A DNA stretch of 45,340 nucleotides from a virus. The notes below the pieces were generated by a model. The model was not told the DNA's origin. It did no database searches and saw only the letters and a program-made list of their open reading frames with translations. Below are positions 2,932 to 45,340 of the stretch, piece after piece. How positions within the stretch are numbered: the stretch's first letter is position 1; each line of letters begins with the position of its first letter. Where the stretch lies: IMG/VR virus record IMGVR_UViG_3300027985_001260, positions 1 through 45,340 of that record, one strand, 5' to 3'. Made by a program: the position numbers and the translations under genes.

Positions 2932-3369
2932 ATGACAACGAACCCCCTGGAGATCATCGCCGCGAAGTACGCGAAGGCGGAGCAACCGCCCGAGGCCGAA
3001 GGACCAAGCCGCCCCGCCCCAAGCGAGGAGCTTGCCGAGCTGGGGGAACTGCTCCGCCGGAACCGGATCGGCCTTCGCCGCCGTGGCCGTGGCCTGGTCT
3101 TCGTCTACCATGACCGCGCGGCCGTCAGCCCGGAGGATCAGGTGGAAATCCTGGCCCTGGTCAACGCCTGTTATGGCGAGATTCGCGCCAATCACTGGAC
3201 CAGCCTTGAGCCAGACGCCGACGAAGTGGGCGCGGGTCCTTCTGACGTGCTGGACCCTGCGGGTGCTACGAGCCGCGAGGTTTTTGCACGGGGGAATCCG
3301 GGGAAACTTTGCACATTGCACACGGCCACGGCTCCGGCGTGTGAAAGTTCCGTGAACCCGAACGGTTAG
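2932..3369 (+). CDS. Hypothetical phage protein
   Basis: A 145-aa protein from the ATG at 2932 (MTTNPLEIIAAKYAKAE). An upstream in-frame ATG at 2848 would run through the GGWCC array and is less likely. The protein is charged and has no recognised domain; residues about 40-90 could form a small alpha/beta fold. It lies between the replication and packaging modules, and the small terminase gene starts 3 bp after its stop. Function unknown. Confidence 0.6.
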   Translation: MTTNPLEIIAAKYAKAEQPPEAEGPSRPAPSEELAELGELLRRNRIGLRRRGRGLVFVYHDRAAVSPEDQVEILALVNACYGEIRANHWTSLEPDADEVGAGPSDVLDPAGATSREVFARGNPGKLCTLHTATAPACESSVNPNG

Positions 3370-3372
3370 GGC

Positions 3373-3990
3373 GTGCAAGTGAGCGAGACGCAGACCCATT
3401 CGACGGCGGGCGATACCCCCCCCACGTTCAAGACGAAGAACGCCGCATGGACCGGGCTTGCCTCGGGACGGTGGCGGATCAGCCGCCGCACCTTCTTTAA
3501 CCACGTCCCTGATTCTGCACTGTATACTGTTGATATGATTGAATCTATTGCGCGCGCGCGGGGCTGGCCGCCCCTCCCATCGTCCGGCGCTCTTGACCCT
3601 AAGGGGGAGGGGGGGGCGCGCGGCGCGGCCGAAGATGAAGCCGAGAAGCAGAAGGCGGAGAAGCGGATAGAGGACGCGGAAAGGTACTGGAAGGCGAAGG
3701 CGGATCGGGAAGAGACGGAGGCCAAGTTAAAGGCCCTGGAGCTGGCAAAGCGGGAAGGGCTCTACGTCACAAGGGAAGAGGTTGAAAGGACCCTTGCCGC
3801 CAAGGCGGCGCTTTTCAAAATGCGCATAGACCAAGGTATCCCGCCGCTTGCGGAGTCCATCGTTTACGACTGCGGCGGGACGCCGGACCAGGTGGCGGAC
3901 GTGCGGGACCGCATAGGCAACCTGGTCTTCGGGGAGCTGGACCGCCTGACGCACTATGTGGACATCATGGTGGAAGTGGCCGATGACTAG
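3373..3990 (+). CDS. Terminase small subunit-like DNA packaging protein
   Basis: A 205-aa protein from a GTG start. It has an N-terminal segment resembling a winged-helix DNA-binding domain (TFFNHVP, then MIESIARARGW), a long charged coiled coil (about residues 80-130, rich in E, K, A and R) and a C-terminal helical domain. This order fits Nu1-type small terminase subunits, which bind cos and recruit the large subunit. Its last 8 bases overlap the start of a GpA-type large terminase, the standard neighbour. The call rests on architecture and context, because sequence identity in this family is low. Confidence 0.65.
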   Translation: MQVSETQTHSTAGDTPPTFKTKNAAWTGLASGRWRISRRTFFNHVPDSALYTVDMIESIARARGWPPLPSSGALDPKGEGGARGAAEDEAEKQKAEKRIEDAERYWKAKADREETEAKLKALELAKREGLYVTREEVERTLAAKAALFKMRIDQGIPPLAESIVYDCGGTPDQVADVRDRIGNLVFGELDRLTHYVDIMVEVADD

Positions 3991-34886: not shown

Positions 34887-36635
34887 ATGCGAAACGCTGT
34901 CGGAACAAGTCATCTTCTCCTCAAAGGCAGAACCTACTACTTCCGCTACGCCGTGCCACGCGAGCACCGCCAGCTACTCGGCTGCAGCGAGTTGCGGCGC
35001 AGCCTTGGCACAGGCTATGCTGCCGAGGCGCGACTACGGGCAAAACGACTCGCCCTCGCCGCGCACGGCATCTTTCGCATGCTCGGACGCATGGCCAGGG
35101 AGGGACGCTTCGTGGAAGAGGATTTGAAAGACGTCAGGGAGTTCGTCGACACGATCTTCCGGGAGGCGCTCGAAGAGAACGAGATGCAGCGCTTCTCGGA
35201 GTACGTGAAGGACTACCCCAAGGAGCTGGACTACCTGCCTGGGGACACCGAAAAGCGCATCGCCTATTTCAAGGGGATATTAGCCAGGCGGGACTATACC
35301 CGGCTTGAGGACGTGGCCCGGATCTTCTGCGAGGAGGACGTGGGGGTCGACTTCCCAGAGGACCCGGTTAAGCGAAGGATGCTCGCGCACGAGATCGCCA
35401 AGCACTTCATCGACTACTACACGATCTGCATGCATCGCAGCCAAGGCGACTTCAACTACGAGAAGACCATATACCCGCCGCTGCCCGACGGGTCCCTGAG
35501 TTCACCGCCTGTGACACTCGTCGTGCCTGCCGCGCCCGCCCCCAAATCCACCCCCCTGCTCTCGTCGGTCATCGCCGAGTATGGCGACCTGCAGGTGGCG
35601 GCCGGGGCCTGGACCGAGCGCTCCCGCTTCGACATCCAGTCCACCTTGTCCAATCTGATCGACATCCTGGGCGAAGTGCCCGTTGGCAGCATCGACTATG
35701 AAGCCATACGCAACTTCAAGAGCACGCTGCTCAGGCTGCCTCCTAACCGGAAGAAGGCCAAAGCATTCCGCGACAAGAGCGTGGCTGATATCCTGGCGAT
35801 GAAGCCGACCGCATGCATCTCGAAGACGACCTTTAACAACATCATGACCAACGTCTCGAGCTTTTTCGCGTGGTGCAAGGCGCACGGCTACACGGCCGAG
35901 AACTACGCCGAGGGGATGAAGGTCAAGCAGAAGCACGCGCGGCCGGATTCCGCCAGGGATGTCTACACGCCGGAAGGATTGGCGCTTCTATTCGGCGCCA
36001 AGGGCTACACGGAAGACGGATTCAAGCACGCATACATGTTCTGGATTCCTCTGCTCTGCGCCTTCACCGGGGCGCGGTTGGAGGAGCTCTGCCAGCTCTA
36101 TGTCGCCGACGTGCGGGAAGCGGACGGGGTGTGGGTGCTGGACATCAACGAGAATCCCGATGCCGTCGGGAACAGGGACAAGCACGTCAAGAATGGCAGC
36201 TCCATCCGGCTCGTTCCCATCCACCCAGTGCTGCGGGACCTCGGCTTCCTCGACTACCACGCGTCCGTGGCTGCCGCCGGGAACGAGCGCCTGTTCCCTG
36301 AGTTGAAGAAGGTTCGGGAGCGCTACAGCCACGATGCCAGCAAGTGGTTCGGTCGCTTCCGAAAGAGCGTCGGCCTGACCTCGGACAAGCTGGACCTGCA
36401 TGCCTTCCGGCATACAGTCATCAATCTGTTCAAGCAGCAGCGCATCCCCAAGGAAGACTATTCCGAAGTGACGGGCCACGCCAAAACGAGCACTGCCGAC
36501 CGCGTCTATGCCAAAGCCTATCCCCAGGATGTGCTACTCCGGGATGTTGTTGAAAAGATAGATTACGGCTTGGACCTCTCGCACCTCAAAGGGTCCAAGT
36601 TCGGAACAGGCGCTGGCAAGAAACGAAAGGGCTGA
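34887..36635 (+). CDS. Island tyrosine integrase (DUF6538 N-terminus)
   Basis: A 582-aa recombinase. The first 60 residues (HLLLKGRTYYFRYAVPREHR, RRSLGTGYAAEARLRA) are the DUF6538-type arm domain. A helical core-binding region (about 225-340) precedes the catalytic domain with Arg in TGARLEELC, HAFRHTV, GHAK and Tyr in RVYAKAY. It reads away from the tRNA, the normal arrangement for a tRNA-integrated island, and differs from the prophage integrase. It probably mobilised the region at 34736-45340 and beyond. Confidence 0.9.
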   Translation: MRNAVGTSHLLLKGRTYYFRYAVPREHRQLLGCSELRRSLGTGYAAEARLRAKRLALAAHGIFRMLGRMAREGRFVEEDLKDVREFVDTIFREALEENEMQRFSEYVKDYPKELDYLPGDTEKRIAYFKGILARRDYTRLEDVARIFCEEDVGVDFPEDPVKRRMLAHEIAKHFIDYYTICMHRSQGDFNYEKTIYPPLPDGSLSSPPVTLVVPAAPAPKSTPLLSSVIAEYGDLQVAAGAWTERSRFDIQSTLSNLIDILGEVPVGSIDYEAIRNFKSTLLRLPPNRKKAKAFRDKSVADILAMKPTACISKTTFNNIMTNVSSFFAWCKAHGYTAENYAEGMKVKQKHARPDSARDVYTPEGLALLFGAKGYTEDGFKHAYMFWIPLLCAFTGARLEELCQLYVADVREADGVWVLDINENPDAVGNRDKHVKNGSSIRLVPIHPVLRDLGFLDYHASVAAAGNERLFPELKKVRERYSHDASKWFGRFRKSVGLTSDKLDLHAFRHTVINLFKQQRIPKEDYSEVTGHAKTSTADRVYAKAYPQDVLLRDVVEKIDYGLDLSHLKGSKFGTGAGKKRKG

Positions 36636-36648
36636 AAGATTCCCCACG

Positions 36649-36773
36649 TGCTCGGCAAACGAAGCGCAGCGAAGAGCCGAGCACTAGCCTGGGGGTGAAT
36701 GCCGCCTCGGGCGGCAGAGGGGGATGGCAATGAATCCCCCCTCTCTGGAGGAGGCGCGGGCAAAGCCCGCCTC
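36649..36773. repeat. Run of four strong hairpins after the island integrase
   Basis: In order: GTGCTCGGC...GCCGAGCAC (36649-36685), GCCGCC-TCG-GGCGGC (36702-36716), GAGGGGAT...ATCCCCCCTC (36718-36743), GAGGCGCGGGC...GCCCGCCTC (36751-36773). None has a convincing U run. They may be stacked terminators, recombination or origin structures, or part of an RNA. No protein gene is supported in 36636-37140. Confidence 0.5.
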
Positions 36774-36816
36774 TACCATCTAGACCGCGCGCCTTGGCCG
36801 TCGCCTACTGCAGGCT

Positions 36817-36897
36817 GACAGGGGACGGGCGTGGGCATCAAGGCTGAACCCTTCGGGGCGGCTGCGCCGCGCCTTGACGCCCACGCCCACCCCTGTC
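36817..36897. repeat. T-shaped inverted repeat (81 bp)
   Basis: The left arm 36817-36844 pairs with the right arm 36871-36897, with two mismatches and one extra base. The 26-base apex holds two further hairpins, CCC-TTCG-GGG (36849-36858) and CGGC-TGC-GCCG (36859-36869). The folded form is a long stem with two side arms, like a viral T-shaped terminal hairpin. Confidence 0.65.
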
Positions 36898-37140
36898 GTC
36901 CGATGGTGTGGGCGACGGGCGGGGATGCCTTCGGCGAGGGCTCGAGGCAGGGAGGAGGGGAGCGGCTTCGTTTATATCCGGTTCACCAGTCAGCTGGTCA
37001 TCAGTGGCGCAGATCCCAAAGAGCGCCTCCGGGCTGACGTACTTCCGAGTTACCTGTGCGTCTTTCAAAGAGCCCTGTCGAAATGTGGGCTATCCTAAAT
37101 GCGTGTGCTCAGATCAGAGTCAAGGATACAACTGAATTGG

Positions 37141-40100
37141 CTAGAGTTCATCACCATTGCGCACTGGGTTCTTCTGATAAGGAAGTTTCCGCCCAAAAAA
37201 AGACTCCGCAAAGTGTTTTGCGTTTAGGTCATCATTTTGCATTGGATCGTCTTTAATGAACAGATAAGCCCTTTCTGATCCTGTTTTTTCCGAAACATCA
37301 ATTTCGTAGTTCCACTTTGGGCTATATAGAAAGTCAGCGGCTTTACGGCATGTCAGATTGTCTATCTCCATAAACTTAAATGATCCATCCTTTAATTGAG
37401 TATGGCTCAAGAAAAGATGGTTGGTTATGTCGTAAACTGTGGTCAGATCTCCTGCGATCATGAGAGTTTCTTTGGCATCGTCCTTTTTAACGCGGTTTAG
37501 GGCCTTTCCCAGTTTCTGTACTAGGTCGATGTGGAATCCCTTGAGTTCGGCGCCAAATTCGCTAACTATAGCAGCGTCCGGATGTAACGCATCCAAAAGC
37601 ATCAATGTCCCTAGCAAGCCAAGATGATTGGGATAAAATCGGCGGCCGACTTCGCCCGGCGATGGGATGTTTCCCTTGCCGAACTCCTGCTCTTTGATCG
37701 ATCCAATATGTGCGACAACTAGGTGGGGGCAATTTCGGAATTCCTCGGGATACCGCTCGAACAGGGCATTGTCTGGGGTCACATCGAGCATGGGGGCTTT
37801 TTCATCTGTTTCATTTTGGTCGTAGTACATGTCCTTTCCGTCTGGACTCCGCTTTCGAGGGTAGAATCCCGAATCACCCGTAAAAATGACCTTTCGTTTC
37901 CCTTTTGCCGTGTCGAACTCGAATCCCAGGCCAACAGCGGAGTCACGCGTAATCACATCGTCATGGAAAGCGGTTAGAACGGTGAGCGTAGTTTTTTCAT
38001 TGATTTTGATGCGCTGATTAGTGGAGGGGGACAGGGTCACCACCTCGCCATACAATGGATCACGCAAGTCCAACAGGCCAGAAAATTTTCTCTGTACGCC
38101 GAGGCTTAGGTATAGGTTGATACACTTCTGTCGTAATTTTGTATTGTTCCTGCGCCTGTGCAAAAGCATCAAAATAGATTCTAGCTCTGCAGTGTGGTCA
38201 TCATGGGCGTGTGTGACGACGATGTGGTCGATGCCGTTTAGCCTCCCGCCAGCTCGATGAAAATTCGATATAAAGTCATATCCAGGGTCAATGACAATGC
38301 CTTGCCCTGCATGCCTGATGTAGTATCCTCCGCCTCTATCTGATTCCTCCGCTGATGGAATTGTTGGTGTGTATGAATTCCATTCTCGCAATACAAGCAA
38401 AAATGAAAATTCGTCAGAAAAACAAGACTCATCTGTGATAAAGCGATCGGTCTTTGATCGTGATAACTCAATTGTGTCGAAGTATGTTTTTTGTGTCTCG
38501 TGATCAATCTCCTCTAGGACGTGAGACAGAATCATTTCGAGGTAAGCATCTGGAGTGTCAATGGTAATTTCCAGATCATGATTCATCCGTTCTTGGCTCT
38601 GAACCGCATCTGTGCGCGATATTTCAGATGCAAAATGGCGTGAAACAGAAGTATAAAGGGATGCCAGATCTTTCTTTATATTCTCTTCGAGCCGAAGCTG
38701 GTTTTGAATTGAACTGAAAAGCAGGCTTGCTTTCTCTACGGTGCCCATTTGCAGCAAATTCAGGCTCTTTCTTAGCTTCGCCTCAAAGTACCATTTTCGT
38801 AGTGATAGACTCTGAGATCCTGTGAATTTCTTCTCAACACGATCGTAAACCCGGATTGCTTCCTTCGGCTTGCCCTGCTTCGCGAGTAACCATCCCTTGT
38901 ACACCAGCGCCCTGGCGACTGTTTCTCGAATGCCGCGCTCCGTGGCTGCTCCGAAACGGCGCTCTATGTCATCGTATGTCCGGAGTTGTTCCTCCGGTTT
39001 GCCTAGCTTCCCGAGAGTTACGGCCTTGTTTACCAGCGCCCTGGCGACCTGCTCTTGAATGCTGGGCTCCGTGTCTTCTCCGAAACGTCGCTCGATTTCG
39101 TCGTAGGATTGGAGTTTCTCCTCCACTTTTCCCTGCTGTCCGAAGGCTAAGCCCTTGTACAACAACGCCCTGGCGACCTGCACTTTAATGTTAGGTTCCG
39201 TGTCTTCTCCGAAACGTCGCTCGACTTCATCGTAGGTCCGGAGCTCTTCCTCCGGTTTGCCTAGCTTCCCGAGGATTACGCCCTTGTTTACCAACGCTCT
39301 GGCAACCTGCCCTCGAATGCCGGGCTCCGTGTCTTCCCCGAAACGTCGCCCGATGTCATCGTAGGCCCGGATTGCCTCCTCCGGCTTGCTCTGCTCCGCG
39401 AGTGTCCATCCCTTGTTCACCAGCGCCCTGGCAACCTGCCCTCGAATGTCGGGCTCCGTGTCTTCTCCGAAACGGCGTTCAATGTCATCGTAGACTCGGA
39501 GCTCTTCCTCCCGCTTGCCCAGCTTCCCGAGGGCTAAACCCTTGTTCGCCAACGCCCTGGCGGCTGGCTCTCGAATGCCAAGCTCCGTGTCTTCTCCGAA
39601 ACGTCGCTCGATGTCATCGTAGACCCGAAGTGCCTTCTCCGGCTTGCCCTGCTGGGCGAGTATCCATCCCTTGTTCACTAGCGCCCTGGCAACCTGCCCT
39701 CGAATGCCGGGCATCGTGGCAGCTCCGAAACGGCGGACGATGTCATTGTGGATTCGGAGTCCTGCCTTCAGCTTGCCCAGCCTTCCGAAGGTTATGCCCT
39801 TGTTCACCAGCGCCTTGGCGACCTGCTCTTGAATGCCGGGCTCCGTGTCTTCTCCGAAACGTCGCTCGATGTCATCGTAGACCCGGAGTTCTTCCTCCGG
39901 CTTGCCTAGCTTTCCGATGGTTACACCCTTGTACACCAGTGCTCTGGCAACCTGCCCAGCAAAGAAAGACTTCCGGGACGCTTCGAACCGATCCAGAAGT
40001 CCATCTGCTGTTTCGAAAGCCTCCTCCCATCGTTTTTGTCTGGCGAGTGCATATACCTTCTCGTTCAAGGCCATGACCTCGAACCAATCTGGAAAGACCT

Positions 40101-40422
40101 GTCCCTTGAATCCCTTGATCAGAGTAAGGTTAAGCACATCGAGAGCTTTCCCGAAGTTGTAGGCATCTCTGTTCAGGATGCACGCAAGCATCAGTGACGC
40201 AGCATGATCTGCTGACTTTGTGCCCAAAACATCTTCGAGAATGCTGACGGCTTGCGCCGTCTTTCCCTCGAGGGTCAGCAGCCGAGCATCAAGGATTGAC
40301 GCCCATTCTCCCTGTCCTGATACCTGCTCGCGCAACGCTTTGAAGCCAATATGGACCTCTGGATCGTCCCAATTTCCAGACAGAAGAAGCAGAAATTCTT
40401 TGATAATTTTTTTGCTAGGCAT
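37141..40422 (-). CDS. TPR-repeat / metallo-beta-lactamase fusion protein
   Basis: A 1093-aa protein from the ATG at 40422 (a TTG at 40434 is possible). Residues 1-150 are helical. Residues about 152-532 are nine TPR-like units of 43 residues (consensus VARALVNKGxxLGKLGKPEE, then YDDIERRFGEDTEPxI). A helical linker follows. A metallo-beta-lactamase domain spans about 690-1000, with HAHDDH at 738-743, a late His in VVAHIGS and Asp in FTGDSGF, so the metal ligands look complete. The fold suggests a nuclease or hydrolase controlled by a repeat sensor. There is no signal peptide. It lies alone on the minus strand of the island. Metallo-beta-lactamase proteins occur in AVAST type I defence, but this ATPase-free fusion is not one I know. 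Confidence 0.85.
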   Translation of the reverse strand: MPSKKIIKEFLLLLSGNWDDPEVHIGFKALREQVSGQGEWASILDARLLTLEGKTAQAVSILEDVLGTKSADHAASLMLACILNRDAYNFGKALDVLNLTLIKGFKGQVFPDWFEVMALNEKVYALARQKRWEEAFETADGLLDRFEASRKSFFAGQVARALVYKGVTIGKLGKPEEELRVYDDIERRFGEDTEPGIQEQVAKALVNKGITFGRLGKLKAGLRIHNDIVRRFGAATMPGIRGQVARALVNKGWILAQQGKPEKALRVYDDIERRFGEDTELGIREPAARALANKGLALGKLGKREEELRVYDDIERRFGEDTEPDIRGQVARALVNKGWTLAEQSKPEEAIRAYDDIGRRFGEDTEPGIRGQVARALVNKGVILGKLGKPEEELRTYDEVERRFGEDTEPNIKVQVARALLYKGLAFGQQGKVEEKLQSYDEIERRFGEDTEPSIQEQVARALVNKAVTLGKLGKPEEQLRTYDDIERRFGAATERGIRETVARALVYKGWLLAKQGKPKEAIRVYDRVEKKFTGSQSLSLRKWYFEAKLRKSLNLLQMGTVEKASLLFSSIQNQLRLEENIKKDLASLYTSVSRHFASEISRTDAVQSQERMNHDLEITIDTPDAYLEMILSHVLEEIDHETQKTYFDTIELSRSKTDRFITDESCFSDEFSFLLVLREWNSYTPTIPSAEESDRGGGYYIRHAGQGIVIDPGYDFISNFHRAGGRLNGIDHIVVTHAHDDHTAELESILMLLHRRRNNTKLRQKCINLYLSLGVQRKFSGLLDLRDPLYGEVVTLSPSTNQRIKINEKTTLTVLTAFHDDVITRDSAVGLGFEFDTAKGKRKVIFTGDSGFYPRKRSPDGKDMYYDQNETDEKAPMLDVTPDNALFERYPEEFRNCPHLVVAHIGSIKEQEFGKGNIPSPGEVGRRFYPNHLGLLGTLMLLDALHPDAAIVSEFGAELKGFHIDLVQKLGKALNRVKKDDAKETLMIAGDLTTVYDITNHLFLSHTQLKDGSFKFMEIDNLTCRKAADFLYSPKWNYEIDVSEKTGSERAYLFIKDDPMQNDDLNAKHFAESFFGRKLPYQKNPVRNGDEL
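38827..39969 (-). repeat. Nine 129-bp coding repeats (TPR-like units)
   Basis: The units are 129 bp (43 codons) in strict register, e.g. the shared string GTGTCTTCTCCGAAACG (plus strand) at 39071, 39200, 39458 and later, with a variant at 39329. Nucleotide identity between units is high, which suggests recent duplication and easy gain or loss of units. The first unit lacks its first six residues. Confidence 0.8.
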
Positions 40423-40609
40423 TGGTTTGTCCAAATTTTGGTTTTAAACAAGGGGGGATAAAAGGACGCCCACCGTCACTGAACAAAATGGAGGTCAAAA
40501 TAAGTGTAATCCCGCTGTTGCCTATGTCGCCCGACGGGTGGGCAGTAGGGCAGGAGTATCCTTCCTCTAACTAGCCCAGTTGAAATATGAACTATCCGAC
40601 ATCTATGCG

Positions 40610-40810
40610 TCAATACTCGTCGACTGGTGCTAGTCGTAGAACCTGAGCCAACGGCCTCAACTCGAGCTCCTCGGCTTTCTGTCCAAACAGCAGCGCCAAT
40701 CGCATAGAATCGGCAGCCACTTCTGAGTTGAATTGATGCATTGTTCTATCTGAGTGGCTTGCAATGCGCTCGGCAGTTGTAAATCGGCCGAGCTGGGAGC
40801 CCCCAGACAA
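40610..40810 (-). pseudogene. Possible remnant of a plasmid/ICE-type gene
   Basis: A 66-codon fragment on the minus strand (SQLGRFTTAERIASHSDRTM, then VAADSMRLALLFGQ, ending APVDEY). It reads like the end of a longer protein cut at its 5' side, with no ribosome site. The rest of 40423-40852 shows no gene; it holds the promoter region of the TPR-metallo-beta-lactamase gene. Confidence 0.3.
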
Positions 40811-40847
40811 CAGCAGGGCGATCCGGAATCGGGGCCGCCCTGCTGTT
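40809..40847. terminator. Bidirectional hairpin downstream of the 220-aa gene
   Basis: AACAGCAGGGCG (40809-40820) pairs perfectly with CGCCCTGCTGTT (40836-40847). It lies 6 bp beyond the stop of the minus-strand gene at 40853. The U run is weak in both directions, so termination strength is uncertain. Confidence 0.5.
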
Positions 40848-40852
40848 TCACT

Positions 40853-41515
40853 TTATGCGATTGGCGCAGCAATCCGCCGCTTGGAGCCTATAACAAACCT
40901 ACCCCGGCCGACGTCCTTCCGCCCTGCCTGCCTGGCCGCATGGACCAGAGCACGGACGATTTTCCGCTTCTGAGCGAACAGTCCGGCATACGAGGGCAGC
41001 AGTCGTTCTTCCGCTTCCCATGCTGCCTGCAACCTCGCGAGCGGCGCATGCACCGCCAGTTCCTCGAAGTACGCCTGTTTGTCTCGGGAACATTCCTTGG
41101 ACAACGCAACCGTGGCCCGACCGTCCTTCTGTATGACCTCGAAGACATGCCCAGGTCCGGCGTCGACGCGCAGCCGCGTGTGCGGCCAGACCGCGAACGG
41201 CTCTCCTTCCAAAAGCCCGACATCGTCACTGCCAGCCGTGGCCAGGATGAACAAACGGTCATTCCACCAGACGAGCGCGGCATTGAGCAATCCCTGCTGC
41301 TTGCGCCGCGCCTTCTGGTCGCGCGACAGGTCGAAGATGCTCTCGCCCATGCGGGTGCGGTACTTGCCCGCGACTCGCTGGACGATTGATTCCCATGTGT
41401 CGTGCTTCTTCTGGGGCAGGACGGTCAGACCGTGTCTGACGTAGCCCCGGGCGACAAGATTGGTAGTCAGGTACTGTAGAAGATAGATGATGTCCTGGTC
41501 CGCGATGCGCTTCAT
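40853..41515 (-). CDS. Unknown 220-aa protein paired with a structured leader
   Basis: From the ATG at 41515 with a perfect GGGAGG ribosome site; longer frames upstream run through the hairpin-rich leader and are rejected. The N-terminus (KRIADQDIIYLLQYLTTNLV) is helical. The middle (LLNAALVWWNDRLFILATAG, FAVWPHTRLRVDAGPGHVFEV) is beta-rich. The C-terminus is strongly basic (QKRKIVRALVHAARQAGRK, GSKRRIA), suited to nucleic acid binding. I do not recognise the family. Being downstream of a possible large RNA suggests an RNA-protein pair, but that is inference only. Confidence 0.6.
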   Translation of the reverse strand: MKRIADQDIIYLLQYLTTNLVARGYVRHGLTVLPQKKHDTWESIVQRVAGKYRTRMGESIFDLSRDQKARRKQQGLLNAALVWWNDRLFILATAGSDDVGLLEGEPFAVWPHTRLRVDAGPGHVFEVIQKDGRATVALSKECSRDKQAYFEELAVHAPLARLQAAWEAEERLLPSYAGLFAQKRKIVRALVHAARQAGRKDVGRGRFVIGSKRRIAAPIA

Positions 41516-41685
41516 GTTGACCTCCCGGTCATGATGTAAAGCGCGGCCACCCGGCCTCGCTTCCATCGGCCCGGCAAGCCGGAGGGGTGCCACTCCCTCC
41601 GTTGACTCGTGGTCGCTTGCCTGGCCTTGGAAACGAAAAGATGCACAAACAGCAAAGGTCGGGACTTTCGAAGGCGGCTGTTGAT

Positions 41686-42495
41686 GCAGGTTGCCAACCT
41701 GCGCCGCTTCCCGTTCCGCTGCCCAGCGAAACGGAAATGCTTCTCCTTGTCCCACGCTCCCCCTGTACGGCTTGCTGCCGGTCCGCTACGACCAGCCCCC
41801 GCCCAAAAGGCGGCAGCCGCACAGGTTCCCCGTCTGCATCGTCGACGTAAAAATCTGGATCCGGTCGGTCAGTTGGTCAGGGTATGTACCGCCTCCCGGC
41901 AGCCATACTTTCCCTGTCAGGATTTCAGCGGGTAGAAGACAGAAAAACCCGCTTACCGCTCCCTGCCAACGTCATCCCTCTCGGGCCACCCTCACGGGCT
42001 ATCCGCTTCCAGACATGTACCCGGTCGCGCCATAATCCTTTCGGACTGTAGGCGCTTGAACGGTTGAGCTATTCACCGCCTCTGGCTTTCGCCCAGGCGC
42101 CGCATTCGCATTGCGGCAGACGATCATCACTGACCGAATGGCTCCCCGTCCGGGCCAGGTTGCGCAGTTTCCCGACGCCCCCTGGACAGGTTTTTCACCT
42201 GCTTCGTCGACGACCGCTACGGTCGCCCATCTTCATTGGAATATCCGGTAGAAGGCCGGGATTACTTGCCCCCTGGCAAGGGGAGATTACTCCGGCCAGC
42301 CCCGGTCGCACCGCACAAGCGTGTCTCCACGCATACGGCGCTACCCGTGCCCGTCTTTCATCCGCTTGGCAGGCGGAATCCCCGACAGGCACACCCGGTC
42401 ACTCGCTTGCGCGAGCCCGAGCTGCTGTTTGGCATCTTTGATTCATGGACATGCAGCGGATTGGCGAGCCGCTGTTCAGATCCCGGCTAGGCCGG
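41686..42495 (-). ncRNA. Candidate large structured non-coding RNA
   Basis: This stretch has no credible gene but is packed with hairpins whose loops are GNRA-type only on the minus strand. Examples: CCGGC-CTA-GCCGG (42483-42495), CTCGC-GCAA-GCGAG (42402-42415), a domain V-like fold (42308-42341), a two-part stem at 42254-42297, GACCG-TAG-CGGTC (42212-42224), CAGGT-GAAAA-ACCTG (42187-42201), GCCGCA...TGCGGC (42099-42117), CTGGGC-GAAA-GCCAG (42082-42096), TCC-GAAA-GGA (42036-42045), AGCGGGT...ACCCGCT (41927-41953) and GCAGGTTG-C-CAACCTGC (41686-41702). The RNA would precede the 220-aa gene. Its limits are unknown. Confidence 0.45.
42308..42341 (-). ncRNA. Group II intron domain V-like hairpin
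   Basis: The 34 nt fold as 9 bp (GCGCCGUAU with GUGCGGUGC), 5 bp (GCGUG with CACGC), a GAGA loop and a 2-nt UU bulge on the 3' strand. This is exactly the 34-nt domain V plan, with a CGC triad as in group IIC introns. A 44-nt stem follows after 10 nt, where domain VI would be. No reverse transcriptase gene is present, so it may be a degenerate intron or a look-alike element of a larger RNA. Confidence 0.4.
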
Positions 42496-42606
42496 TGGCA
42501 GAGAGTGTGTTGGGACAGATTTTGGCGGGCTGCATTGCAGCTTCTGGCTCCCGCAGAATGCGAAAGCGAAGAGGGTGTGTTTCTTTTGGGTTCTTTTTTC
42601 CTTTTT

Positions 42607-42633
42607 GTTTCCTTCAGTTTCCTTTGTTTCCTT
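42607..42633. repeat. Three GTTTCCTT repeats in a polypyrimidine tract
   Basis: GTTTCCTT occurs at 42607, 42617 and 42626 inside a pyrimidine-rich run (about 42589-42650). On the minus strand it reads as AAGGAAAC repeats, upstream of the structured RNA candidate. A GTCGCGC-ACG-GCGCGAC hairpin follows at 42651-42667. Nothing coding is seen at 42500-42887. Confidence 0.45.
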
Positions 42634-42887
42634 CCATCTTCCTTGTGGTAGTCGCGCACGGCGCGACGATGCTGGATAATCCAACAACTGTAAGCCTCGA
42701 AAGGACATTTGGCGGATGCTGGAAGTTGCGGTTATTCGCGCACAGATGCTGTAAAAGTGATGTGCTTCGGCGAGGTACTTGTGCGAAATGAATCATACGA
42801 TTCACATATCTTATACACCTTGAAAACTGCAAAGTCAAATTGATGCAATCATCATAATCACAGCACGGCAACGAAAAATTTTCTGTA

Positions 42888-43505
42888 TCAATCTCGTAGC
42901 CATTTCGGGACGCGCAGTCCATTCTTTCCATGGCGTCTTATATATTCTTTGACATGCTTTAGGAAGTCCTTCTCTTTCGCCTCTAGCGTCGCTTTCTGAA
43001 AATCAAAATTATCTTGCACTGCTTTGTACTGCTCAAGATAACTGGGTTGTTCGTCTAATGGCAGAGGCGGTTCAACGCACGGCGTGTCGTGATATTCCCG
43101 CAAGACAGTAAGGAGGGCCGTCCTGTCCTTGGGGCGGTAGTGGTCGAGCATTTCTTTGCATTCATTGACCAGAAAGTAGCGGATCTCAGCATCAGCCAAC
43201 TTCCGGTACCAGCTGTCTTCGTCCTCGGAGTATGTCCATGTCTTGTCATGGTAGATGATATTCTTGAACAGGTTCCAGACCTCCCCATACCAGAGCAGCA
43301 GCACGGCTCGCGGAAAGAACAAGCTGTCAGCGCCATATGCCTTCCGGAAATCATGGATACGAGGAATGGGGATGGCCTGCCGACCGCTCTCGATGGAACT
43401 GAGGAAGACTGGGTTTGAAAGTCCGAGCTTTTGGGCAACTACCTGCAGTGTCTCTTTATCGCGGCAGCGCAGGCCGCGAAGGTAAAAACCAAGTAGGCGG
43501 TTCAT
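42888..43505 (-). CDS. XRE-family regulator
   Basis: A 205-aa protein with an N-terminal helix-turn-helix (ETLQVVAQKLGLSNPVFLSS, IESGRQAIPIP) and a long helical, charged C-terminal half with no enzyme motif. It is divergent from the methyltransferase operon across a 304-bp AT-rich gap with palindromes, so it probably controls that operon, like the C proteins of restriction systems but larger. Confidence 0.7.
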   Translation of the reverse strand: MNRLLGFYLRGLRCRDKETLQVVAQKLGLSNPVFLSSIESGRQAIPIPRIHDFRKAYGADSLFFPRAVLLLWYGEVWNLFKNIIYHDKTWTYSEDEDSWYRKLADAEIRYFLVNECKEMLDHYRPKDRTALLTVLREYHDTPCVEPPLPLDEQPSYLEQYKAVQDNFDFQKATLEAKEKDFLKHVKEYIRRHGKNGLRVPKWLRD

Positions 43506-43809
43506 TTTAATAAACTAGTTAATTAAGTAGAAGCTGTCAATCATATGCGGAATTTTCGGCGTTATACGCGAAGAATGCGGGGTTCGGGGAGTGCCAAGAA
43601 AATATATGGGGGGGAGCGTTGTAAGGAAGGGCTACACCGTGGTTACGGGCGCACTGCTTATATGCAAAGGAAAAGTCGAAGATTGTAGGTAGAATATTAC
43701 CAAGATTATTAATATGTAGACTACATGCGTAATATGTGGCAATATTAAAAATATATTGTTGACAACTTCAAATATAATGGCCAAGAGAATCAACAAGAGG
43801 AGGAAATTT
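43506..43809. promoter_or_regulatory. AT-rich divergent control region with palindromes
   Basis: It contains a perfect ATGTAG-A-CTACAT (43714-43726), GTTG-A-CAAC (43758-43766) and TATAAT (43773-43778), with AT-rich sequence between. The first palindrome resembles controller-protein sites. No well-spaced -35 could be fixed. There is no gene here other than the leader of the small protein. Confidence 0.5.
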
Positions 43810-44031
43810 ATGGATAAAAAGCGCGAAAAATTCGTCGAGCTTGCCGAAAAAAGGGTGACCAGGGCAATGAAGGATATGCGGCTATTGGGAAATTTGGCTA
43901 ACAGGTCAAATTATGCCTACACTGAAGAGGACGCCAAAAAAATAGTAAATGCCCTCGAACTAGAAGTTAGAAATGTGCGCAGGAAGTTTGAAAATACAGG
44001 CTCTGATCAAGAAGTAACGTTTAAGCTGTGA
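43810..44031 (+). CDS. Small helical protein preceding the methyltransferase
   Basis: A 73-aa protein from the ATG at 43810, chosen because AGGAGG stands 7 nt upstream; upstream ATGs at 43756 and 43777 lack this. Two long helices are predicted (KREKFVELAEKRVTRAMKDM, EEDAKKIVNALELEVRNVRR) around a NLANRSNYAYTEED motif. Similar small proteins accompany cytosine methyltransferases in restriction-type operons. The exact role is unknown. Confidence 0.6.
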   Translation: MDKKREKFVELAEKRVTRAMKDMRLLGNLANRSNYAYTEEDAKKIVNALELEVRNVRRKFENTGSDQEVTFKL

Positions 44032-44058
44032 ACAATCGTTCCCTATTTTGGTGAAAGC

Positions 44059-45054
44059 ATGGAGATGCCTTTGAAGGCTGGAGCGTTGTTCTCTGGCATT
44101 GGTGGATTTTGTGTAGGCTTTGAGCGGGTGGGGATTGAAACGCGTTGGGCAGTCGAGTTAGACGAATACGCTGCGAGAACCTATCGCCACAATGTAAAAA
44201 CACCTCGCGTAATCGTGGGGGACGTGCGTGCGGTCACGGTGCCAACAAGTGAGTTGGAGCCAGTGGATGTTTTGCACGCCGGTTTCCCCTGTCAAAGTTT
44301 CTCCCAGGCGGGTGGCAGGAAAGGATTTGAGGATCCTCGTGGTAAGCTGTTCTATGAAATAATTAGAATTGTGAATGAGTTTAAAGACAAGAAGCCATCA
44401 TTAATAGTATTGGAAAACTCTCCATATATTAAGCATGGAGATGGGGGGAGTTGGTTTATTGAAATTATAAAAGAAATAAAAAAAGCTGGCTACTGGTTTA
44501 GAGAAGCAAATTGTGCTGAGCTAGATACATACACTTTGACGCCATCGCCACAAAGACGTAATAGGCTATTTATGGTTGCGGTATCAATTGACAGATTTGA
44601 TAGCGGTAGATTTCCTTTTCCTGAAGTACATAATTCAGAGCCAAAACAGCTAAGTCGGTATATCGATTTTGATGGAGAAGTCGACGAAGCGTATTACCTT
44701 AGAAATGATAACAGGTACCATCATCTTATTTCGAGTTTTGCAGAAGATAAAAAATGCATATATCAATTGCGTAAGTACTTTGTGAGAGTCAAAAACCCGA
44801 ATGAATGTCCTACGCTGACAGCTAATATGGGGCTTGGGGGGCATAATGTGCCCTTTGTGCACGATTCTCGAGGACTACGAAAGTTGACAGAGTACGAATG
44901 CTTGCGTCTTCAGGGCTTTCCAGACAGTTTTGAATTTCCCGCAGACGTCCCACGGGCAAGAAGATACGTGCAGGTAGGTAATTCTGTATCTGCACAAATC
45001 GCAGAGCGACTGGGGAAAGGGATATTAGAAAAATTTGATTCGGAGCGCGAATGA
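44059..45054 (+). CDS. DNA (cytosine-5) methyltransferase of a restriction-like operon
   Basis: A 331-aa enzyme with FSGIGGFCVGFE (SAM site), GFPCQSFSQAGG (catalytic Cys), LENS in place of the usual ENV, SPQRRNRLFMV, a CPTLTAN target region, LTEYECLRLQGFP and QVGNSVSAQIA. It should transfer methyl groups to C5 of cytosine at one site. The DNA is much more AT-rich than the prophage. Its stop overlaps the start of the ATPase gene (ATGA), which shows an operon. The ATG at 44059 or 44065 may be the start. Confidence 0.9.
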   Translation: MEMPLKAGALFSGIGGFCVGFERVGIETRWAVELDEYAARTYRHNVKTPRVIVGDVRAVTVPTSELEPVDVLHAGFPCQSFSQAGGRKGFEDPRGKLFYEIIRIVNEFKDKKPSLIVLENSPYIKHGDGGSWFIEIIKEIKKAGYWFREANCAELDTYTLTPSPQRRNRLFMVAVSIDRFDSGRFPFPEVHNSEPKQLSRYIDFDGEVDEAYYLRNDNRYHHLISSFAEDKKCIYQLRKYFVRVKNPNECPTLTANMGLGGHNVPFVHDSRGLRKLTEYECLRLQGFPDSFEFPADVPRARRYVQVGNSVSAQIAERLGKGILEKFDSERE

Positions 45055-45340
45055 TGGAAATCGGTTGGCACCACCCTATTGATGATTCCGACCAGTGGGA
45101 CGGCTTTAACGAGCCTGGAATTGAGCACTTTCGGAGCAATCCCTTGCTCCACCTGGCTCGTGAAATCATCCAAAATGCAATCGATGCGCGTGATCACAGT
45201 AAGGTGCGCGTGTCTTTTAACGTGTCTGAAATTGAAACAAGTTCAATCCCAAACATCAATGAGCTACGAGCAAATTTTCATTTGTGCCTTGAGGCTGCGG
45301 AAAACGAAAGCGAAAAAGCAAAGCGATTTTTTAGAAGTGC
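45051..45340 (+). CDS. GHKL ATPase, MutL/MORC-like (5' part, cut by the window end)
   Basis: The first 96 codons (MMEIGWHHPIDDSDQWDGFN, EPGIEHFRSNPLLHLAREII) run into the ATP-binding N box QNAIDARDHSKVRVSF of the GHKL fold. The rest lies outside. This kind of ATPase occurs directly after cytosine methyltransferases in MutL/MORC-containing restriction systems and in MZA defence systems, where Z1 and AIPR genes follow. It overlaps the methyltransferase stop by 4 bp. Confidence 0.7.
   Translation, partial: MMEIGWHHPIDDSDQWDGFNEPGIEHFRSNPLLHLAREIIQNAIDARDHSKVRVSFNVSEIETSSIPNINELRANFHLCLEAAENESEKAKRFFRS

Follow-up and report, generated by a model that had tools for sequence, protein, structure and literature searches.

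Locus and Genomic Setting

The window analysed here is a 45-kb IMG/VR record (45,340 nucleotides), and all coordinates refer to its whole length. A contractile-tailed prophage extends in it from a primase gene (252) to an integrase gene (ending at 36635), past which the G+C content falls from about 0.63 to 0.44-0.62, so the DNA between 37 and 45 kb is probably of host or island origin. On the minus strand of this flank, a 220-aa ORF starting with ATG (40853-41515) is preceded by a ribosome-binding site (GGGAGG, 41526-41521) and, farther upstream, by a long structured RNA. The flank (36636-45340) also encodes a helix-turn-helix protein (42888-43505), a small DUF4145-like ORF and a cytosine-5 methyltransferase (44059-45054), and is possibly a defence or mobile island. 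A 1097-aa protein encoded on the minus strand at 37141-40434, in which many near-identical TPR repeats are fused to a metallo-beta-lactamase-fold domain, has neither a close plasmid match nor a PADLOC match. A search of the 45 kb for a reverse transcriptase or intron-encoded protein found neither PF00078 nor such an ORF, and a promoter search gave no match.

For the minus strand of 41686-42495 the folding energy is -389 kcal/mol, dinucleotide shuffles giving -342 +/- 7.6 (z -6.2, none of 20 shuffles being as good), and the plus strand folds more weakly (-326, z -4.5). Hairpins with a GNRA tetraloop and a stem of at least 4 bp number seven on the minus strand and none on the plus strand. A sequence-only reading of this DNA had proposed a structured RNA here, with GNRA loops on the minus strand only, in a region devoid of any credible gene and next to a basic 220-aa protein on the same strand; each of these points is borne out, the ORFs within the region being short, overlapping and without a supported protein.

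Domain Order and Splice Sites of the RNA

The sole Rfam match in the window is RF00029 (group II D5-D6), at about 42343-42243 on the minus strand (47.4 bits, gathering score 40). D5 and D6 normally form the end of a group II intron. Downstream of them, the structured RNA of the window goes on. In the circularly permuted (CP) group II RNAs, or T-large RNAs, the order is P1, P2, D5, D6, linker, D1, D2, D3, D4, and reversed splice sites, AY/NU and GGGCG, lie inside the RNA (Roth et al., 2021; PMC8637638). With a probability of about 0.94, the minus strand from about 42392 to about 41686 encodes a CP group II ribozyme, with a divergent acpG gene downstream of it on that strand. The earlier suggestion of a large ornate or intron RNA is accordingly upheld as to intron descent, as seen in the group II D5-D6, but the order is circularly permuted; regarding its extent, the core from the P2 outer stem (about 42392) to about 41686 stands, while 42393-42495 is only a possible part.

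Two covariance models were built with the window excluded. R1, which describes the block from D5 and D6 to the 5' splice site in eight known CP members, has its best match in the 45 kb at 42373-42206 on the minus strand (26.3 bits, E 2.2e-5), covering the P2 loop, D5, D6, the linker and GGGCGAC; CP members outside the model score 25-113 bits, the divergent Thermus aquaticus members reaching 25 and 30. R2, a D1 model from sixteen members, matches only once in the window, downstream of D5 (42113-42034, minus strand, 18.3 bits, E 0.0022). As both scores are modest, the window RNA is taken to be a divergent member. A second R1 match in the window (32592-32528, 12.4 bits) lies inside a methyltransferase gene and was discarded as chance.

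The 5' leader (42393-42495) folds into hairpins, among them a possible P1 with a GNRA loop (GCUCGC-GCAA-GCGAGU, 42402-42417). The P2 stem-loop region (42347-42392) is placed by sequence and fold, with R1 aligning its UGCCAA loop, and its hairpin (42361-42377) carries the loop CUGCCAAG, identical in sequence to that of the Azotobacter CP RNA P2. In the CP class the P2 loop pairs with the loop of D2. In the window, UGCCAA is complementary to UUGGCA in the 3' hairpin, its best partner, which points to a putative pseudoknot between the two, a weaker partner option existing in D2. In D5 (42308-42342), which is defined by RF00029, R1, family covariation and changes relative to a Leptolyngbya homologue, an AGC triad (42342-42340), an 8-bp and a 5-bp helix, a GAGA loop and a bulge of 2-3 nt can be recognized. 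D6 (42243-42305), placed by the RF00029 and R1 alignments, ends in AU; in its minimum-energy fold A42249 is bulged, and this residue, which stands 7 nt ahead of the 3' splice site at the end of U42243, is predicted to be the branch point.

The splice sites are reversed, the 3' site (after AU) preceding the 5' site (before GGGCG) with 14 nt between them. By its position, this linker, AUUCCAAUGAAGAU (42229-42242), is the predicted RNA circle. IBS1, GAAGAU (42234-42229), is formed by the six bases before GGGCG, and EBS1, GUCUUC (41940-41935), occupies the family's exact position in its arm, EBS1 being defined by position as the 6 nt that end 7 nt ahead of UGAAA. All six pairs form between the two in the window and, across 14 members, 79 of 84 pairs form, a result equalled by none of 20,000 re-pairings of the members. 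For Thermus pTT8, an EBS1 candidate located after J2/3 was dropped. Short linkers are also found in relatives (12 nt in Leptolyngbya, 13 nt in B. glumae).

D1 (41826-42228) starts at the 5' splice site with GGGCGACC and is supported by the R2 match, the chain of motifs and the EBS1-IBS1 pairing. It contains the conserved stretch GUGAAUAGCUCAACCG (42076-42061) and the EBS1 arm GUAA-GCGGG-UUUUUCUGUCUUCUA-CCCGC-UGAAA (41956-41923). The J1/2 motif GGGGAA lies 5' of D2, GGGAAC being the J1/2 motif common to the family. D2 (41762-41825; CCUGUGCGGC...GCCGUACAGG) folds at -43.2 kcal/mol, the purine-rich GGGAGCGUGGG (41751-41761) is a candidate J2/3 by analogy with the family's GGGGAGACC, and the putative D3/D4 region (41686-41750), delimited by its fold, includes the predicted 3' hairpin GCAGGUUGGCAACCUGC with UUGGCA (41702-41686). 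The ordered chain GGGCGAC...AUAGCU...GUAA..UGAAA...GGGAAC occurs in the window at family spacings, and 20,000 dinucleotide shuffles of the kilobase never produced it. Across 20 members, 99.5% of the D5 helix is paired and 8 of its 11 pairs show two-sided changes, slid controls falling to about 40% pairing, although this alignment, like some others, was fitted to the model, a bias that favours the CP reading. The Rfam search and the covariation analysis that had been proposed from the sequence have thus both been run, yielding RF00029 D5-D6 in the one case and compensatory changes in homologues in the other.

It could be argued that a canonical group II intron is present, or two tandem intron fragments, with D5-D6 ending an intron that begins farther upstream and the downstream structures belonging to another element, given that the D5-D6 match exceeds the gathering score for ordinary group II RNAs. 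Such an arrangement is extremely improbable: the D1 model matches only downstream of D5, the DNA upstream is an A+T-richer stretch with the helix-turn-helix ORF, the window has no reverse transcriptase, the locus has the CP-specific GGGCG 5' splice site (14 nt past D6), an EBS1 at the exact position and AcpG, and the entire order is kept in Leptolyngbya. A descent of D5-D6 and D1 from two different introns is ruled out by the D1 model together with the Leptolyngbya synteny.

The AcpG-Like Gene and Related Modules

AcpG is the one protein family known to accompany the CP group II ribozyme (Roth et al., 2021; PMC8637638). Against an AcpG HMM of 19 known members, from which the window was excluded, the 220-aa ORF scores 28.0 bits (E 2.4e-7), the only real match among 429 window ORFs, while the best of 3000 shuffles reaches 10.8. 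Comparison with AcpG by hhalign (E 3.6e-5, probability 71.5) and with the Leptolyngbya AcpG by BLASTP (8e-8) agrees with this match; the ORF has no significant single-sequence blastp match to TTHC007 alone, and none in Pfam, NCBIfam, PHROG or PADLOC. AlphaFold2, given single-sequence input only, modelled the protein with a pLDDT of 38, too low for a comparison of folds. Judged by sequence homology, this is a divergent AcpG, only distantly related to the other family members, and what the sequence-only reading had listed as an unknown gene can be identified, with this support, as acpG, the gene associated with the ribozyme class.

A permissive tblastn (E about 2) led to a hypothetical protein on plasmid pLBX of Leptolyngbya boryana, which is AcpG (49.8 bits) and is preceded directly 5', on the same strand, by a CP RNA (RF00029 47.6 bits, R1 17 bits). 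This RNA shares with the window the GNRA D5, the short linker (12 nt), the GGGCGACCGU start, AUGAAUAGCUCAACG, the EBS1 arm and the same-strand AcpG gene downstream. It differs in that its RNA is only moderately similar in global alignment and lies on a cyanobacterial plasmid of ~505 kb, adjoining partition genes, whereas that of the window lies in prophage-flanking DNA. Between the two, 11 two-sided compensatory changes were counted (three in D5, four in basal D6, two in the EBS1 arm and two in EBS1-IBS1), the mid-D6 count, which is out of register, not being used; these changes indicate selection on pairing. The pLBX locus is the nearest relative found, and with its order from RNA to AcpG unchanged, the whole module can be regarded as conserved, gene order included.

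In sequence and fold, the RNA could also be a dead CP remnant, of the right ancestry but with catalysis lost, considering its divergent sequence, its very short linker, a P2-D2 pseudoknot that is not clearly identifiable and its location in low-G+C DNA adjoining a prophage. This is unlikely, as the RNA keeps an intact AGC triad, bulged branch A, splice sites and EBS1-IBS1, compensatory changes separate it from Leptolyngbya, and the AcpG frame is open with a ribosome-binding site. In Leptolyngbya as in the window, the RNA stands directly 5' of acpG on the same strand. Co-transcription would fit this position, as would a structured leader, riboswitch-like or an attenuator, that regulates acpG in cis, with catalysis secondary. 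Such a leader is very unlikely, in view of the conserved group II catalytic features and of the position of acpG in most relatives, where it is divergent or far away, in the loci collected here, mostly plasmid-borne, as in those of PMC8637638. Since acpG is divergent or distant in most relatives, cis control of it is not the general role of the class.

Among the members found, only pLBX and pM02_c2, a plasmid of an uncultured bacterium, pass the canonical RF00029 model besides the window, and all classical CP members scanned fail it. We infer that the members with a GNRA D5 probably form a deep branch. pM02_c2 resembles the window in passing RF00029 (43.3 bits), its D5 loop being GAAA, and is unlike it in its divergent acpG and longer linker.

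The member set consists of Thermus pTT8 and Polaromonas pPNAP05 (from PMC8637638), then of further plasmids and one genome. One scan of genome contigs gave a single likely CP RNA (Acinetobacter), and a sample of 398 genomes taken as one phylum yielded a single strong CP RNA, along with two weak matches that look like chance. Plasmids, phages and viral contigs gave no match in strict tblastn and blastn searches with either the AcpG or the RNA of the window as query, nor did viral contigs with single AcpG proteins, and the AcpG alignment offers no stretch conserved enough to seed a search for related loci; short-motif scans, with candidates checked by hand or by R1, found no CP RNA in other viral contigs. 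Because of this, and because the flank is probably host or island DNA, a phage-borne ribozyme is not claimed: the locus of RNA and acpG lies in host-like DNA adjoining a prophage.

Proposed Reaction and Place in the Class

The chemistry of the class has been demonstrated in vitro for five members, and processing in cells is not known for any member (Roth et al., 2021; PMC8637638). For the window RNA, in which domain order, splice-site motifs, EBS1-IBS1, covariation and AcpG homology are shown, the chemistry is modelled on these relatives. P2 and D5-D6, transcribed first, would combine with D1-D4, which follow downstream, to form a group II active site, and the pairing of EBS1 GUCUUC with IBS1 GAAGAU would hold the 5' splice site. 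The 2'-OH of the bulged A42249 in D6 would then attack the 5' splice site before G42228, and the freed 3' end would next attack the 3' splice site after U42243 (back-splicing). Instead of splicing itself out, the ribozyme would thereby release AUUCCAAUGAAGAU as a 14-nt circle and leave a branched RNA whose 5' part is 2'-5' bonded to the 3' part, the latter carrying acpG if co-transcribed. Circle-assay linkers quoted for four members are 32-86 nt long (PMC8637638), so with 14 nt the second step, circle closure, may be inefficient.

With the CP group II RNAs the window shares the order P2-D5-D6-linker-D1-D2-D3, the GGGCG and NU splice sites inside the RNA, EBS1-IBS1, the AUAGCU motif in D1, a nearby AcpG and the lack of an intron-encoded protein. 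Unlike the classical CP RNAs, it has a GNRA (GAGA) loop in D5, passes the canonical Rfam model, has a linker of 14 nt and is shorter (about 710 nt). Its acpG follows it in the same direction, and the locus lies in DNA that flanks a prophage. An intron-encoded reverse transcriptase or maturase is common in canonical group II introns. With canonical bacterial group II introns (RF00029) the window has in common D5, a D6 with bulged A and the EBS1-IBS1 logic, and it departs from them in domain order, splice-site order, expected products and the missing intron-encoded protein. While the CP class and AcpG were already known, the GNRA-D5 branch, the cyanobacterial relative, the linkers of 12-14 nt and the quantified EBS1-IBS1 covariation are new here. 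Cyanobacteria are not named as a host phylum in the main text of PMC8637638, and neither is Escherichia.

E. coli plasmids of about 30 kb also carry a CP RNA with a divergent acpG: among 5426 complete E. coli genomes, 21 have such RNAs, at 23 sites that are without exception plasmid-borne; on plasmid NZ_CP045715 the CP RNA is at 2740-2592 (minus strand) and AcpG at 3013-3705 (plus strand). On the Pandoraea plasmid pPO70-4 the CP RNA appears split by an insertion sequence, as an IS256-family transposase gene separates two partial R1 matches (1508-1591 and 2982-3098). Three plasmids of only 4-5 kb, Pseudoalteromonas pMtBL, Halomonas pHaKG2_3 and pM02_c2 (with D5-D6 of the RF00029 type), carry acpG and a CP RNA; the module takes up a large share of their coding capacity, which speaks for its importance to plasmids.

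Regarding function, the authors of the class suggested that such RNAs target others in trans, stabilise transcripts or are connected with mobile elements (Roth et al., 2021; PMC8637638). Most probably, the branched ribozyme acts in trans or in cis in the biology of plasmids or mobile elements and has AcpG as its binding partner. A far more specific and quite doubtful proposal is that the window and pLBX, with pM02_c2 perhaps allied, form a distinct lineage in which RNA and AcpG are one transcription unit, IBS1/EBS1 serves as a short changeable address, and the AcpG-loaded branched ribozyme would reverse-splice into, and thereby cut, the RNA or single-stranded DNA of rival mobile elements with IBS1-like sites.

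CP group II RNAs, a rare and recently described class with few members, belong to the small number of large natural ribozymes of unexplained purpose. Rfam can miss such RNAs or mislabel them as ordinary group II introns. The E. coli plasmid CP RNAs offer a handy laboratory system for the class and, as EBS1 and IBS1 co-vary, the predicted reaction is directly testable. With the member in the window, the class comes to include a putative deep branch in which D5 has kept a canonical look, and the co-occurrence of AcpG with the RNA spans very divergent members.
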